Origin: Prochlorococcus sp. HOT208_60m_808M21
GTDB taxonomy: Bacteria; Cyanobacteriota; Cyanobacteriia; PCC-6307; Cyanobiaceae
Direction: 5' to 3'
NCBI GenBank assembly: GCA_002026005.1
Contig: MWOX01000131.1
Coordinates: 1-41,102 of the forward strand
DNA: 41,102 nt
In this document: positions 6,787-12,149 of the stretch, piece after piece
Numbering within the stretch: position 1 is the stretch's first letter
Layout: each line of letters begins with the position of its first letter
Notes under the pieces: generated by a model
What the model was told of the DNA's origin: nothing
Databases searched by the model: none
What the model saw: the letters and a program-made list of their open reading frames with translations, nothing else
Program-made: the position numbers and the translations under genes

Positions 6787-7113
6787 TTATAAATATTTTT
6801 TGAATGTTTCATAAGCTAAAAATATACTTATTAGTATCATTAAAGCACCAGTTGATAAAGCAAATTTGCTAGGAGATATTTTTTTTGATACCCATTTACC
6901 AATAAGAACTCCTACTATGCTAGAGCTTATTAATGCTAGAGAACTTCCAAGAAAAACAATTATTGGCTTGCCCGATTCCGCAGAAAGCATCAATGTGGCT
7001 ATCTGAGTTTTATCGCCTAGTTCAGCAATAAAGATTGTTGTAAAAGTCGTTATAAATATAGAAAAAAAACTTTTTTCTATATTGTTTTCTTTTTTTTCTA
7101 ATTTACTATTCAT
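6787..7113 (-). CDS. Half-size UPF0016/Gdt1 cation transporter, first half
   Basis: 108 residues: a short polar N-terminus (~15 residues), then three hydrophobic helices. The motif ELGDKT lies at ~31-36 with QIATLML following. It is the upstream member of the split Gdt1-type pair and likely dimerises with the product of 6475-6786 to build one transporter with two ExGDKT motifs in antiparallel orientation. Its ATG overlaps the stop codon of the upstream Cys-cluster gene (ATGA at 7113-7110), so three genes form one coupled operon. A manganese or calcium export role is inferred from the family, not shown by the sequence. Confidence 0.87.
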   Translation of the reverse strand: MNSKLEKKENNIEKSFFSIFITTFTTIFIAELGDKTQIATLMLSAESGKPIIVFLGSSLALISSSIVGVLIGKWVSKKISPSKFALSTGALMILISIFLAYETFKKYL

Positions 7114-7457
7114 TTTCCTGAAACAGCAATTTTAAAAGTTTTCATCTCTTTACTTTGGTATCCATAATTTGATGAAATATGTTGTTTGCAGCAATCTATT
7201 AAAAATTTATCACCAGATTTCAAATATCCTTTAAATGAAGTTGAAAATTCATTTACTCGGCAAAAATGTGGTCTGGTTTCATAAATTAAGCATTTTTTAT
7301 TTTCTCTGTCTAGGTTTTTACACCAACCGTCTTTAGCAGTCATCGAATTTATCAAAGCTATATCTTCTTCGTTAAGCTTGTCAGCCAAATTGCTTCTTTC
7401 GTTCAAGTCGAATTTACAACAAGCTCCACAATTTTCTATACATGTCCATGATTCCAT
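7110..7457 (-). CDS. YkgJ-type cysteine-cluster protein (putative metal-chelating)
   Basis: 115 residues. The N-terminal Cys cluster reads CIENCGACC (residues 5-13), and further cysteines follow in CKNLDRENKKCLIYETRPHF, FCRV and DCC. This spacing matches the YkgJ/UPF0153 family, annotated as zinc- or iron-chelating or Fe-S proteins of unknown biochemical role. It is the first gene of a coupled trio with the split Gdt1-like transporter. That places a metal-binding protein beside a metal transporter, a suggestive link but not proof. The promoter should lie in the ~80-base divergent gap shared with the psb30-like gene. Confidence 0.82.
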   Translation of the reverse strand: MESWTCIENCGACCKFDLNERSNLADKLNEEDIALINSMTAKDGWCKNLDRENKKCLIYETRPHFCRVNEFSTSFKGYLKSGDKFLIDCCKQHISSNYGYQSKEMKTFKIAVSGK

Positions 7458-7629: not shown

Positions 7630-8394
7630 TTGGTGACTTATCTTGAGGGTGTTTATTGGGATTTAGATGGTACCATCGCAAATACCGAATTAGAGGCTCA
7701 TTTACCTGCTTTTAATAATGCTTTTAATGACCTTGGTATTGATTGGAATTGGAATACTAATACATATATAAAACTTCTGAAGATAAATGGGGGCAAAAAT
7801 AGGATTGCTTATTACGCTAAATCTAATAATGATAATTTCTCAGAAGATTTAATTCTCAAAATTCATGAAACAAAGCAATTACATTATTTAGAAATTATAA
7901 AAAAAAATTGCGTTAGTTTAAAAACTGGTGTTTTTAGATTAACAAATGAATTACATAGAAAAAAAGTAAGACAATTTATTGTTACTTCAAGTTCAAGAAA
8001 TCAAGTTGATCTTCTTGTTGAATACCTTTTTAATGGCTTCAATCCTTTTGAATTCATTATTTCAAGTGAAGACGTTGAATTAAAGAAACCAAATGCATTA
8101 CCTTATTTAAAGGCAATTCAATTAAGTGGTATAAACAAAGAAAACTCAATTGTTTTCGAAGACTCCAATCCAGGATTAAAATCTTCCTTGGGAGCTAACT
8201 TACCCACAATTTTTGTTCCTTCAAATATCCCAATTGTTCTTGAGAAAAATATTAAATTAGATTGTATTTTAGACAGTCTTGGTGATGAGAATAATGTGGC
8301 AAATGTGATTAAAGGCCCTAAACTAAAAAAATCATATGTTGACCATAGCTTTCTAAGTGATTATTTAGTGTCTTTTAGTAATGCAAAAAACTAA
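7630..8394 (+). CDS. HAD-superfamily hydrolase (CbbY/beta-phosphoglucomutase-like)
   Basis: 254 residues. Motif I is DLDGT at 11-15, with nucleophile Asp11 and acid/base Asp13. Motif II is in IVTSSSRN (~115), motif III is the Lys in ELKKPNALPY, and motif IV is VFEDSNPGLKSS with a conserved Asp. A helical cap of ~70 residues follows motif I, as in subfamily I enzymes of the CbbY/Gph group that dephosphorylate sugar phosphates. The substrate cannot be told. The start is either TTG at 7630 or GTG at 7633; no ATG fits. It overlaps the next gene (ycf20) by 14 bases. Confidence 0.88.
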   Translation: MVTYLEGVYWDLDGTIANTELEAHLPAFNNAFNDLGIDWNWNTNTYIKLLKINGGKNRIAYYAKSNNDNFSEDLILKIHETKQLHYLEIIKKNCVSLKTGVFRLTNELHRKKVRQFIVTSSSRNQVDLLVEYLFNGFNPFEFIISSEDVELKKPNALPYLKAIQLSGINKENSIVFEDSNPGLKSSLGANLPTIFVPSNIPIVLEKNIKLDCILDSLGDENNVANVIKGPKLKKSYVDHSFLSDYLVSFSNAKN

Positions 8395-8707
8395 TTTTTC
8401 AAGAATTACCTACCAGTTAAATAATTTATTTTTTGGGTTTCTAAGTGATACTTGGAGGACAAAATCTATTGTACTAATTTCTGTTTTGACGGGTTATTTT
8501 TTGTTCGCCAATTTTCTTACAAAATTTATATCTGAAGGTAAAAATGAGTTAATTATGGTTCCAATAATTATCTTTTTCATTGAAATCATTATAAGAATTA
8601 AACCTGCCGCAAGCTCAAAATTTTATTATCTATGGACTGTAGTTGATAAATTAAGAATCGGTGCAATTTATGCCATTATACTTGAAGCATTTAAATTAGG
8701 ATCTTAA
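8381..8707 (+). CDS. ycf20: Ycf20 / DUF565 membrane protein
   Basis: 108 residues. The family pattern is clear: an N-terminal LNNLFFGFLSDTWR segment, two hydrophobic helices (~29-48 and ~56-72), and a conserved C-terminus with DKLRIGAIYAIILEAFKLGS. Ycf20 occurs in cyanobacteria and plastids. In green algae and plants a homologue has been linked to non-photochemical quenching, though the molecular role is not known. The start overlaps the HAD hydrolase gene by 14 bases, which suggests coupling. It ends three bases before the convergent L32 gene. Confidence 0.87.
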   Translation: MQKTNFSRITYQLNNLFFGFLSDTWRTKSIVLISVLTGYFLFANFLTKFISEGKNELIMVPIIIFFIEIIIRIKPAASSKFYYLWTVVDKLRIGAIYAIILEAFKLGS

Positions 8708-9009: not shown

Positions 9010-10764
9010 GTGTTTAGATCACAATTCTCATATTCAGATTCTAAATCAAGTTATTCGGATCTTCTAGAAGATATTGAGACGGGAAAAATAGAATCAATAT
9101 TTTTTTATCCGAGGCAGAGAGAAATTGATGTTCTGTATAAAAATGGCGATAAATTTAAAATACCTATCCTTTACAACGATCAATTAATCCTTGAAAAGGC
9201 TACTGAAAATAAGGTAAATCTTACTATTAATAATAGTAGAAAAGAAGCCTCAGCTGCTAATTCATTTGCTTCAATAAGTCTTTTCCTGATTTTCATATTA
9301 GCTATAGTCTTAATCTTGAGGAGCACATCAAAATTGGCTTCCAGAGCTTTTGGTTTTACCAAAAATCAAGCTAAATTTTTAACTATTGATGATGTAGAAA
9401 CGAGATTCGATGATGTAGCTGGCGTCCCTGAAGCCGCTGAGGAATTAAAAGAGGTAATAACATTTTTGAAAGAACCAAAGAAATTTGAAAATCTTGGAGC
9501 AAAAGTTCCTAAGGGAGTTCTTCTAATAGGCCCGCCAGGAACAGGTAAAACATTATTAGCTAAAGCAATTGCTGGTGAATCAGGAGTACCTTTTCTCTCA
9601 ATATCGGCATCAGAGTTTGTAGAACTTTTTGTTGGTGTTGGAGCAAGCCGAGTTCGTGATCTGTTCTCTAAGGCTAAGGAAAAATCTCCTTGTATAATTT
9701 TCATTGATGAAATTGATTCCATTGGTAGGCAAAGAGGGTCTGGGATCGGAGGTGGAAATGATGAAAGAGAACAAACCCTTAATCAGCTTCTAACTGAATT
9801 AGATGGTTTTGCTGATAATTCTGGGATTATTGTTTTAGCAGCAACAAATAGACCAGATATTTTGGATTCAGCATTATTAAGACCTGGTAGATTTGATAGG
9901 AAAATTGAAGTAATGCTTCCAGATTTAGATGGAAGAAAAAAAATTCTTTCAGTTCACTCACTTTCCAAACCTCTTTCAAGCGAAGTTGACTTAGGATATT
10001 GGGCTTCTAGAACAGTTGGATTTTCGGGAGCAGATCTTGCAAACTTGATGAACGAGAGTGCTATTCACTGTGCTAGAGACGAATCTAAATTAATCAGTGA
10101 TCTTCATATAGAAAATGCTCTTGATAAAATTACCATTGGCCTGAGAAGTTCTTTAATAACTTCTCCTAATATGAAAAAAATTATTGCTTATAACGAAGTA
10201 GGTAGAGCAATTGTATCTGCTGTGAGAAATGGAATTGAATCAGTTGATAAAATTACGATTTTACCTAGATCTGGATCTATAGGAGGATATACAAAAATAT
10301 GCCCTGACGAAGATGTAATTTCTAGTGGATTGATTTCAAAAAAATTATTATTTTCAAAAATTGAAATTGCTTTAGCTGGAAGAGCAGCAGAAACGATAGT
10401 TTTTGGTGAAGGTGAAATTACACAATGCTCCATAAACGATATCTCTTATGCCACTAATATCGTAAGGGAAATGGTTACAAAATATGGATTTTCAATTATT
10501 GGTCCAATTTCAATGGATTCTGATAATAATGAAATGTATTTAGGAGATGGATTATTTGGAAGAAAGCCTCTCATAGCAGAAAATACCAGTTCAAGAATAG
10601 ATAAGGAAATCATAAATATTTCTAAAATTTCATTAAATAATTCAATAAATATATTGAAAAAAAATAGAGTCTTACTAGATAAATTAGTTGATATACTTTT
10701 AAATCAAGAAACCATAGATAAAAAAGTTTTTAAATTAACAACTTCTAAATTGTTGAAAGTTTGA
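9010..10764 (+). CDS. FtsH-like AAA ATPase with inactivated protease motif (FtsHi-type)
   Basis: 584 residues. A lumenal/periplasmic-type N-domain (1-~85) comes first, with the family segment [16 protein letters not shown]. One membrane helix lies at ~86-104. The AAA ATPase follows: Walker A GPPGTGKT at 174-181, Walker B FIDEID at 231-236, and an arginine-finger segment RPGRFDR ending at ~297, all intact. The M41 peptidase domain is recognisable, but its zinc motif HEXXH reads NEVGR at 395-399, so both histidines are gone and only the Glu remains. The later conserved Asp (in INDISYAT) persists. It should hydrolyse ATP but not peptides, as plant FtsHi proteins do. The GTG start is fixed by an in-frame TAA at 9001. 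The usual first membrane helix is missing. Confidence 0.92.
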
Positions 10765-10796: not shown

Positions 10797-11549
10797 TTGA
10801 TAATTAAAAACAATACAACTAAATTATTAGTTACACTTTCATTTTTACTTATTCTTCCATTTGTACAAAAACAATGGTTTAATTTGTATTCCCTCAATAT
10901 TAATGATATTTCCTTTTATTCAATTCTTTACTATTTGAGCGGTGCAATATGTCCATCTTTGGTGTATATAAACTCTTTAAAAAAATATACATACTATAAT
11001 TTTAGTAAGGACAAAATACATAGTATAAAAATAATTAAAGGAAAAAGATTATTATTCTTAGTAGCAATAAATTTAATATTTCTCTCTTACTTAATAGCTG
11101 ATTATATATATATAAATTTTGATCTTATATTTAATTTACTTCTTGAAGGAATGAATGTACCAAAACTGGATATTCCACAGTTAAGTTTTTTAATATTTTT
11201 AATTTCTATCCTATTAATTTTTAAGAAATCTAGGTTTCTGTTAAAAAAAATAATATTGGTAAATTTTATTTTGATTTCTCTCTATCTTTGGCATCTTCAA
11301 ATTAATAATATTAGTGTTCATGATCAGTTTCATATTTATAGATATTTTGGTTTAAATGACTTAAATTTTATTAATGTTTTTATCCTAGTCGCCATAGAAA
11401 TTTCTTTTTATACGTGGTCCTTTATATCATATAAAACTAATTTAAGCGATTGGATCGTTCCCAAACCTCAAAAAAGGGATGTTATCCCCTTTTTGAATTT
11501 ATTTATTTTTTATTTTTTTATAATTATTTACTATTCAATACTTGCTTAA
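10797..11549 (+). CDS. Polytopic membrane protein, unknown function
   Basis: 250 residues with about seven hydrophobic stretches: ~9-24, 38-58, 86-105, 128-143, 150-166, 187-206 and 233-249. I do not recognise the family. Polar links are short and Lys-rich. The best start is the TTG at 10797, 32 bases after the stop of the FtsH-like gene, with no good ATG nearby, so the two genes probably share a transcript. Codon use is as AT-rich as the neighbours. A functional partnership with the FtsH-like protein (for example as membrane adaptor or substrate) is only a guess from position. Confidence 0.72.
   Translation: MIIKNNTTKLLVTLSFLLILPFVQKQWFNLYSLNINDISFYSILYYLSGAICPSLVYINSLKKYTYYNFSKDKIHSIKIIKGKRLLFLVAINLIFLSYLIADYIYINFDLIFNLLLEGMNVPKLDIPQLSFLIFLISILLIFKKSRFLLKKIILVNFILISLYLWHLQINNISVHDQFHIYRYFGLNDLNFINVFILVAIEISFYTWSFISYKTNLSDWIVPKPQKRDVIPFLNLFIFYFFIIIYYSILA
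11470..11496 (-). terminator. Probable intrinsic terminator of the peroxiredoxin gene
   Basis: Read on the minus strand, a hairpin with arms GGGAT and ATCCC around AAC is preceded by an A-run and followed by six T, about 70 bases after the peroxiredoxin stop codon. This is the classic A-tract/stem/T-tract form and would work partly in both directions. It lies inside the 3' end of the convergent membrane-protein gene. Confidence 0.55.
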
Positions 11550-11564
11550 ATGTTTCTAATTCTT

Positions 11565-12149
11565 CTATAGCGCAGAAAAATATTCCTTACTACCTTTAGG
11601 GTCCTCTAACATTGTTTTTTCCCCAGGGGTCCAGTTTGCTGGACATACTTCATCGGGGTTTGCCGCAACGTATTGATAACCTTGAAGAATCCTTAACGTT
11701 TCATCAACATTTCTACCTACAGGAGCCTTGTTAACTGTCGTATGCATAACTACTCCTTCGGGATTGATAAGAAATAAACCTCTATCAGCCTCCCCATCAT
11801 CATTTAGAACATTGTAAGCCTGGCAAATTTCTCTTTTTAAGTCAGAAACTAATGGATAGTTAATATCACCTATACCACCTTCATTTCTTGGGGTTTGTAT
11901 CCAAGCCAAATGACAGTGCTTGCTATCAACTGATACTCCAAGTATTTCCGTATTAAGTGCTGAGAAATCTTGGTATCTATCACTAAATGCAGTGATTTCA
12001 GTTGGACATACAAATGTAAAATCTAGTGGGTAAAAGAAGAGAACAACCCATTTACCTCTTAGACCTGAAAGTGTAATCTCCTTAAACTCTTGATCATATA
12101 CTGCTGTAGCACTAAAGTCTGGTGCTTCTTGGCCAACTTTTAAGCTCAT
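11565..12149 (-). CDS. Typical 2-Cys peroxiredoxin
   Basis: 194 residues. Reduces H2O2 and alkyl hydroperoxides using thioredoxin; cytoplasmic. The peroxidatic Cys48 sits in [13 protein letters not shown] and the resolving Cys169 in EVCPANW. A GGIG loop and a C-terminal YF (KEYFSAL) are both present, the features linked to sensitivity to over-oxidation in this family. Its codons are less AT-biased than those of neighbouring hypothetical genes, which suggests high expression. A single-gene transcript is likely: the promoter lies in the gap after 12149 and a terminator-like hairpin lies at 11470-11496. Confidence 0.95.

Follow-up and report, generated by a model that had tools for sequence, protein, structure and literature searches.

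Among the FtsH isoforms, FtsH1 and FtsH2 constitute the type-B pair, FtsH3 is of type A and FtsH4 is more distant; in Synechocystis, FtsH1/3 and FtsH2/3 are hetero-oligomers, of which FtsH1/3 is reported to be indispensable for viability and to act on transcription regulators (PMC11287208). Inactivation of the type-B ATPase compromises PSII repair, but inactivation of the type-B protease does not (review PMC9020784). FtsH proteins with a destroyed HEXXH are represented by FtsHi1-5 of plants and algae (Ycf2-FtsHi motor), with the FtsH fold and the motor (PMC11266112, Table 2).

One FtsHi was reported in Prochlorococcus marinus SS120 by Mishra et al. 2019 (PMC6460958), a report repeated in 2021 (PMC8197885), and the chlorophyll a cyanobacteria examined in the former paper had no FtsHi according to its available text. 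The first-pass annotation of the locus described here had claimed that no cyanobacterial counterpart was described; since the inactive FtsH of SS120 is in print (PMC6460958), this claim fails. The part of that paper available gives a count of one in one strain, and the FtsHi of Mishra et al. 2019 is probably the same gene as FtsH1 of the window. On the identity of the dead protein as FtsH1, its single origin, spread, constraint, missing helix and neighbour, nothing was found in the literature searched, mostly outside subscription journals.

The window is the whole stretch of 41,102 nucleotides analysed, contig MWOX01000131.1 of Prochlorococcus sp. HOT208_60m_808M21, from a genome of 1.49 Mb in 379 contigs (81% complete). 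Its FtsH gene is like Synechocystis FtsH1 (slr1390) in paralogue clade, by tree and published isoform assignment, and in being type-B, but differs in its dead zinc motif, the missing first transmembrane segment and the truncated UPF0182 downstream. It is like the plant and algal FtsHi1-5 in FtsH fold, motor and destroyed HEXXH, and plant FtsHi2 reads NEAAM, near the NEVGR of the window; however, plant FtsHi1, 2, 4 and 5 have V, M, V and R, respectively, at the second histidine, where inactive Prochlorococcus copies always have R or K, and the third ligand, changed in these four plant proteins, is often kept in Prochlorococcus (PMC11266112, Table 2). The type-B site mutants of Zhang 2010 and Yu 2013 (cited in PMC9020784) likewise combine a dead protease with an intact ATPase, in complexes that were functional, although those are laboratory type-B subunits in PSII repair and not FtsH1.

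Gene, domains and paralogue identity

The ftsH1-type gene (9010-10764, plus strand) encodes 584 aa from a GTG start, found at the same position in 68 of the 68 loci examined in the window's genus, and its product is, from the ORF, HMM matches, motifs and tree, a predicted proteolytically dead FtsH (pseudoprotease). The FtsH_ext domain (residues 13-72, 9046-9225; 25.7 bits, cut-off 25.5) is followed by a single predicted transmembrane helix at about residues 85-105 (9262-9324), based on a model helix at 82-113, the upstream frames and hydrophobicity. The AAA and M41 architecture of FtsH is present, with Pfam matches to AAA (159.1 bits) and Peptidase_M41 (150.6 bits, cut-off 29.9) and 648 bits against TIGR01241 FtsH_fam (cut-off 600). 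The motor motifs comprise Walker A GPPGTGKT (residues 174-181, 9529-9552), the pore loop FVG (207-209, 9628-9636), Walker B IIFIDEID (229-236, 9694-9717) and the second region of homology with the arginine-finger segment (21 residues, 277-297, 9838-9900), with GRFDR in the 290-297 region. The zinc-binding HEXXH of FtsH (TIGR01241) and of active relatives is replaced by NEVGR (395-399, 10192-10206), and both the Glu of the motif (Glu396) and the former third zinc ligand Asp477 (10438-10440) are still in place. The earlier reading of intact Walker A, Walker B and arginine-finger motifs together with NEVGR instead of HEXXH was confirmed on the 584-aa ORF. Two further FtsH copies of the same genome have intact motifs (HEAGH, HEVGH).

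In a tree of 85 FtsH proteins, with clade labels taken from the literature, the window gene was placed in a 37-row clade (SH-aLRT 99), sister to the clade with the genome's FtsH2-type copy and separate from the FtsH3-type and FtsH4-type clades. Synechocystis FtsH1 itself is outside this tree, the link to it being made via published primers and gene order. Both MED4 'FtsH 4' qPCR primers (PMC6300248) match locus L124 with 0 mismatches and the stated spacing of 203 bp, and the same paper relates MED4 isoform 4 to Synechocystis FtsH1, a relation called 'less obvious than the others'. The gene order shared by lineages from marine Synechococcus to Prochlorococcus is a HAD-type hydrolase (7630-8394, plus strand, in the window), usually DUF565 (8381-8707, plus strand) and then FtsH1, with a peroxiredoxin (11565-12149, minus strand) after it in many, not all, relatives; this conserved synteny supports orthology. 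As judged from tree, gene order and published primers, the window gene is the FtsH1-type (type-B) paralogue; assignment to the Synechocystis FtsH4 type was ruled out by the MED4 primers and the paralogue tree. The numbering of FtsH in Prochlorococcus papers differs from that of Synechocystis. In PMC11262661, Slr1390 is paired with Prochlorococcus FtsH4 and their functions (cell viability) are called 'presumably parallel', a working assumption that is corrected here, as by the MED4 primers the FtsH4 isoform is the protease-dead protein.

Two N-terminal transmembrane segments were looked for in the window protein, of which the first is absent and one helix follows the FtsH_ext start. Class-level relatives had a hydrophobic N-terminal segment before FtsH_ext in 26 of the 26 shown (17-residue maxima 1.16 to 2.29), one of which (L249) is FtsH2-type in the tree. 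The upstream frames of 36 loci were translated to test for a segment hidden in a longer frame, and this possibility was not borne out. Of 36 active copies from Cyanobiaceae and named freshwater relatives, 35 had no hydrophobic stretch up to 70 residues before the domain, with start codons predicted and fewer than 17 residues in that stretch in 5 of the 35. The sole exception, L217, has a frame that also looks over-long. Among the 77 distinct active copies, 12 had a hydrophobic stretch in the upstream frame; 11 of these frames comprise more than 140 residues upstream and are probably over-long. Fewer than 19 residues stand upstream in 79 of 89 inactive copies, and the remaining 10, with longer upstream frames, have no hydrophobic stretch. 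Since active relatives are also without the first segment, its loss probably predates that of the zinc site.

Distribution and origin of the inactive copies

The family sample consisted of 151 Cyanobiaceae genomes with completeness of at least 90%, plus the window's own. The motif was read in 147 orthologues, 30 inactive, all in five genus-level groups (g1, g2, g7, g22 and g32), whereas the 117 active ones came from 28 other genus groups. Four genomes are not in this count: the orthologue is unassembled in G163, G194 and G265, and that of G190, although present, was left out. The ORF was open in 30 of 30 inactive genomes; five of the alignments cross one stop, which in the three read lay upstream of the start. 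An extra sample of 39 chosen genomes, mainly less complete or from additional genera, yielded the orthologue in 23 (G151 counted), the other 16 being all less than 90% complete except G163. Inactive copies from g69 and g73, together with further ones from g2 and g7, were obtained in this sample, as were active ones, e.g. from g61, g63, g64, g66 and g78-g81. Group g15 is active and MIT9313-like by an exact match to the published MIT9313 FtsH4 primer (3 of 400 genomes).

Counted by best matches, 117 of the 151 genomes in the window's genus group have an orthologue with at least 74% identity; of the other 34 genomes, 31 were less than 90% complete. The close Prochlorococcus relatives L034-L036 have the same NEVGR. 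HEXXH was absent from every orthologue read in the genus, which excludes chance and assembly error and rules out a strain-specific mutation, the alternative for which a comparison with sister strains had been proposed in the first-pass annotation.

Six genomes (G163, G265, G194, G098, G102 and G128) gave no match to the gene. The peroxiredoxin neighbour was missing in G265, G098, G102 and G128 (only distant paralogues, 32-38%) and at a contig end in G163 and G194, and the HAD neighbour was missing in G128 (only 23-29% matches) and at a contig end in G265. With neighbours missing or at contig ends, these absences are not evidence of gene loss, and the gene is probably unassembled rather than lost in the six genomes. 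A loss in G151, apparent in the first search, was discarded when an RNASK copy was found between the conserved neighbours. This copy (L323, g2), from a complete 1.8-Mb genome, is the most diverged inactive one, with RNASK, GRFDK and 46% identity, and has the conserved place between DUF565 and peroxiredoxin.

In a tree of 77 orthologues, from which the motif columns were removed, the 35 inactive rows formed one clade (SH-aLRT 93). A 40-row tree, without L323 and many near-copies, recovered the inactive clade with bootstrap 95 and SH-aLRT 93, and a single change was obtained in 92% of 200 bootstrap trees of this set; L171, an FtsH2 copy, was left out. The seven inactive rows of the wider paralogue tree also formed one clade, with a support of only 73. 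Branches were longer within the inactive clade. The zinc protease site was apparently lost once, on the branch to a large group of Prochlorococcus lineages.

This inactivation appears to be independent of that of the plant FtsHi, being nested inside the picocyanobacterial FtsH1 clade in trees built without plant sequences. Against PDB, the M41 domain of the window scored 5.8e-32 with FtsH, 5.2e-15 with YME1, 7.1e-11 with Chlamydomonas Fhl3, 3.5e-9 with FTSHI2 and 3.4e-6 with FTSHI1, i.e. better with bacterial FtsH than with the Arabidopsis FTSHI or Chlamydomonas FtsHi-motor chains. The term FtsHi-like, used in the first-pass annotation, does not hold as a statement of kinship.

The dead zinc site and constraint on the M41 domain

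Removal of identical proteins reduced the inactive set from 94 to 89 distinct proteins; as the window's genus supplied most of them, they are not independent. The motifs read were NEVGR, NEAGR, NEGGR, NEVGK, NEAGK, NEIGR, YEIGR, HEAGR, HEIGK, HQIGK, QIIGK, QIIGR, QQVGR, RESAR and RNASK; the L159 copy, with NEAGK, is presumably that of SS120. The second zinc histidine (residue 399, 10204-10206) is Arg in 71 and Lys in 18 of the 89, and R in nine and K in seven of 16 lineage representatives. The first motif position is N (68), Q (12), H (6), R (2) or Y (1). The catalytic Glu is kept in 74 and lost in 15, being absent in the QIIGK, QIIGR, QQVGR, HQIGK and RNASK copies, and the third ligand is D (74), N (7), E (4), Q (3) or H (1), compared with D in 77 of 77 distinct active orthologues. 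Walker A GxPGTGKT, pore F[VI]G and DEID were present in all 89, and GRFDR in 88, the exception being L323 (GRFDK). On the simplest reading, in which the order is inferred, the earliest loss would be that of the second histidine, on a single branch that follows the divergence of the MIT9313-like lineages, and the first histidine, Glu and Asp would have disappeared later, in several lineages.

A basic residue stands at the lost second histidine in every inactive copy read, even in those without Glu and Asp. It may be conjectured that basic residue 399 replaces the charge of the zinc, pairs with the retained Glu or Asp and holds M41 folded; since 15 of the 89 proteins are without Glu and 15 of the 89 have another residue at the third ligand, a conserved salt bridge cannot apply to all of them. 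The retention of Glu396 and Asp477 in the window copy, and of the first histidine in some relatives (HEIGK, HEAGR, HQIGK), could be taken to mean that proteolysis persists, through a different chemistry or at an incomplete zinc site. This is extremely unlikely, given a second histidine changed to Arg or Lys in 89 of 89 and a Glu lost in five of the motif forms.

Nei-Gojobori dN/dS was calculated for 12 genomes of the window's genus (up to 66 pairs), dropping pairs with saturated dS, e.g. with 63 of 66 used for FtsH2 AAA; the ratios are rough, as mean dS was 0.8 to 1.4. Inactive FtsH1 gave 0.080 overall, 0.048 for AAA and 0.104 for M41, active FtsH3 0.018, 0.009 and 0.023, and active FtsH2 0.027, 0.013 and 0.032, respectively. 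The ratio of M41 to AAA in inactive FtsH1 (2.2) is near those of active FtsH3 (2.4) and FtsH2 (2.5). An M41 value of 0.10 indicates that the dead domain is under purifying selection, looser than in the active copies, and the overall value, which exceeds those of the active paralogues by a factor of 3 to 4.5, indicates weaker constraint. Among the 16 lineage representatives the catalytic positions of M41 vary and the structural positions are conserved, R458, A459, E461, G466, E469, T471, Q472, G493, D531 and E567 being invariant in 16 of 16.

That the gene is on its way out, relaxed once FtsH1 became dispensable during genome reduction, would account for the longer branches of the inactive clade, for the 3- to 4.5-fold higher dN/dS and for a UPF0182 partner truncated or lost. 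It is nevertheless very unlikely: the inactive copies have one origin and an open ORF in 30 of 30 family-sample genomes, dN/dS remains at about 0.08 to 0.10 with motor motifs unchanged, and the six genomes in which the gene was not found are also without the searched neighbours or have them at a contig end. The first-pass view of a maintained pseudoprotease rather than a decaying gene, for which a dN/dS check had been suggested, is thus upheld by the single origin, the purifying selection on M41 (0.104) and the conserved motor motifs.

The predicted structure (mean pLDDT 76.4, pTM 0.58) agrees with the FtsH fold, with matches to 3kds_F (Z 37.0, rmsd 5.3, 421 aligned), AFG3L2 6nyy_E (Z 33.7) and the FTSHI-motor chain 8xku_E (Z 31.2). 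FtsHi-motor chains are also among the best ten Foldseek matches of the model, and so fold cannot separate FtsH from FtsHi.

The UPF0182 neighbour and the role of the inactive FtsH1

A short membrane protein of 250 aa is encoded 32 nt after the FtsH stop (10797-11549, plus strand) and is a probable operon partner of FtsH1, the operon being inferred from spacing. It gave no PF03699 match at E up to 10 and no Pfam match, and its relation to UPF0182, of whose N-terminal membrane part it would be a remnant, is based on profile comparison only. The short proteins of low-light lineages align over 225 columns with the UPF0182 N-terminal membrane part (hhalign probability 98.5); the window's protein scored 95.4 with these low-light forms and had a weak direct link to UPF0182 (68.9). 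In the two g32 loci read, the short partner ORF is absent and FtsH is kept.

Active marine-lineage relatives have a UPF0182 protein of 919-929 aa at the same place (L143, 4769-7555, 1.2e-227; L166, 4707-7463, 1.1e-212). Within about 3 kb downstream of each active locus, UPF0182 was found on the same strand, from 9 nt before to 2.6 kb after the matched FtsH1 end, in 19 of 40 and was absent in 21 of 40. A full UPF0182 followed FtsH1 in none of 43 inactive loci, five of which have less than 550 nt downstream. Genome-wide, 112 of 151 genomes match PF03699, including 110 of the 117 active ones; the 39 without it are 30 inactive genomes, seven active ones, all g5, and G163 and G265, in which FtsH1 is unassembled. 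For 19 of these 39, including five of the seven g5 genomes, the lack was inferred by elimination from the match list of 112. New here is that UPF0182 is full after FtsH1 in many active relatives and reduced to its N-terminal part, or to nothing, in the inactive clade. Inactivation of FtsH1 and truncation of UPF0182 fall on the same branch and therefore count as one event, not as a statistical association. The seven g5 genomes (e.g. L215) have an active FtsH1 without PF03699, so that UPF0182 loss can be independent and does not alone entail FtsH1 inactivation.

The literature naming UPF0182 included no title on its function, and nothing on UPF0182 together with cyanobacteria was found in the literature searched, mostly outside subscription journals; the locus supplies a genetic context for this family. 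Tentatively, FtsH1 and UPF0182 may be a functional pair in marine picocyanobacteria, with adjacent genes, converted together from a proteolytic to a non-proteolytic machine in the ancestor of a large Prochlorococcus group; the zinc site and the large C-terminal part of UPF0182 would have been lost, and selection would have retained the ATPase motor and the inactive M41 scaffold, as well as the multi-helix membrane part in most of the lineages read. This is possible, although less probable than the reading given below for FtsH1 itself.

Taken together, the intact motor, the lost zinc site kept by evolution and the shortened neighbour suggest that the likely function of the protein is that of a motor and not of a protease. 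The interpretation considered here somewhat likelier to be true than false is that the zinc site of FtsH1 was lost once and that the protein has been kept since as a membrane-anchored ATPase with a folded, dead M41 domain, working with active FtsH3. On this interpretation, a membrane-anchored AAA ATPase retained after the single loss would still assemble in a hexamer with active type-A FtsH3, and would provide ATP-driven pulling, subunit contacts and substrate choice, FtsH3 alone being the subunit that cuts. Membership of mixed FtsH hexamers, raised in the first-pass annotation, is thus plausible. Of the 23 genomes searched, 22 have FtsH3 with HEAGH, the exception being G134 (67% complete), and 23 have FtsH2 with intact HEXXH. 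The presence of the FtsH3 gene in the same genomes is compatible, and only that, with the predicted FtsH1-FtsH3 hetero-oligomer of the plasma membrane; as nearly all Cyanobiaceae copies examined are without the first transmembrane segment, the pairing with FtsH3 may differ from that of Synechocystis.

In MED4, the FtsH transcript pool has been described as balanced between isoforms 1, 2 and 3, and for this reason the transcript of isoform 4 seems to be low (PMC6300248). Such an apparently low level poorly suits a stoichiometric brake, in which dead subunits would compete with FtsH2 for FtsH3 and leave fewer cutting sites per hexamer; this alternative agrees with the common type-B class of FtsH1 and FtsH2 and with the FtsH2 and FtsH3 motifs kept in the genomes examined, and is considered unlikely.

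Cutting may also be absent altogether, if a homohexamer of FtsH1, or its complex with the truncated UPF0182 partner, pulled membrane proteins out of or through the membrane like the plant FtsHi-Ycf2 motor. The motor and pore of inactive FtsH1 are intact, the closely spaced neighbour is, in these lineages, likewise without its large C-terminal part, and a non-cutting FtsH motor is known in chloroplasts (PMC9020784, PMC11266112), whose chains rank high in fold. We regard this explanation as doubtful, somewhat less so than the brake, since the two g32 loci read retain FtsH without the partner ORF, there is otherwise no sign of a specific partner, and M41 is not close to FTSHI by sequence.

Laboratory mutants suggested that the type-B protease is dispensable and the ATPase is not (PMC9020784). 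In a group of Prochlorococcus lineages evolution has made and retained the same change, and these lineages offer a natural system for studying the reason for mixed FtsH complexes.

Ahead of the FtsH1 block, the opposite strand of the window encodes a putative zinc- or iron-chelating protein with CxxCxxCC (7110-7457, minus strand) and, adjoining it, a GDT1-type cation antiporter gene (6787-7113, minus strand).
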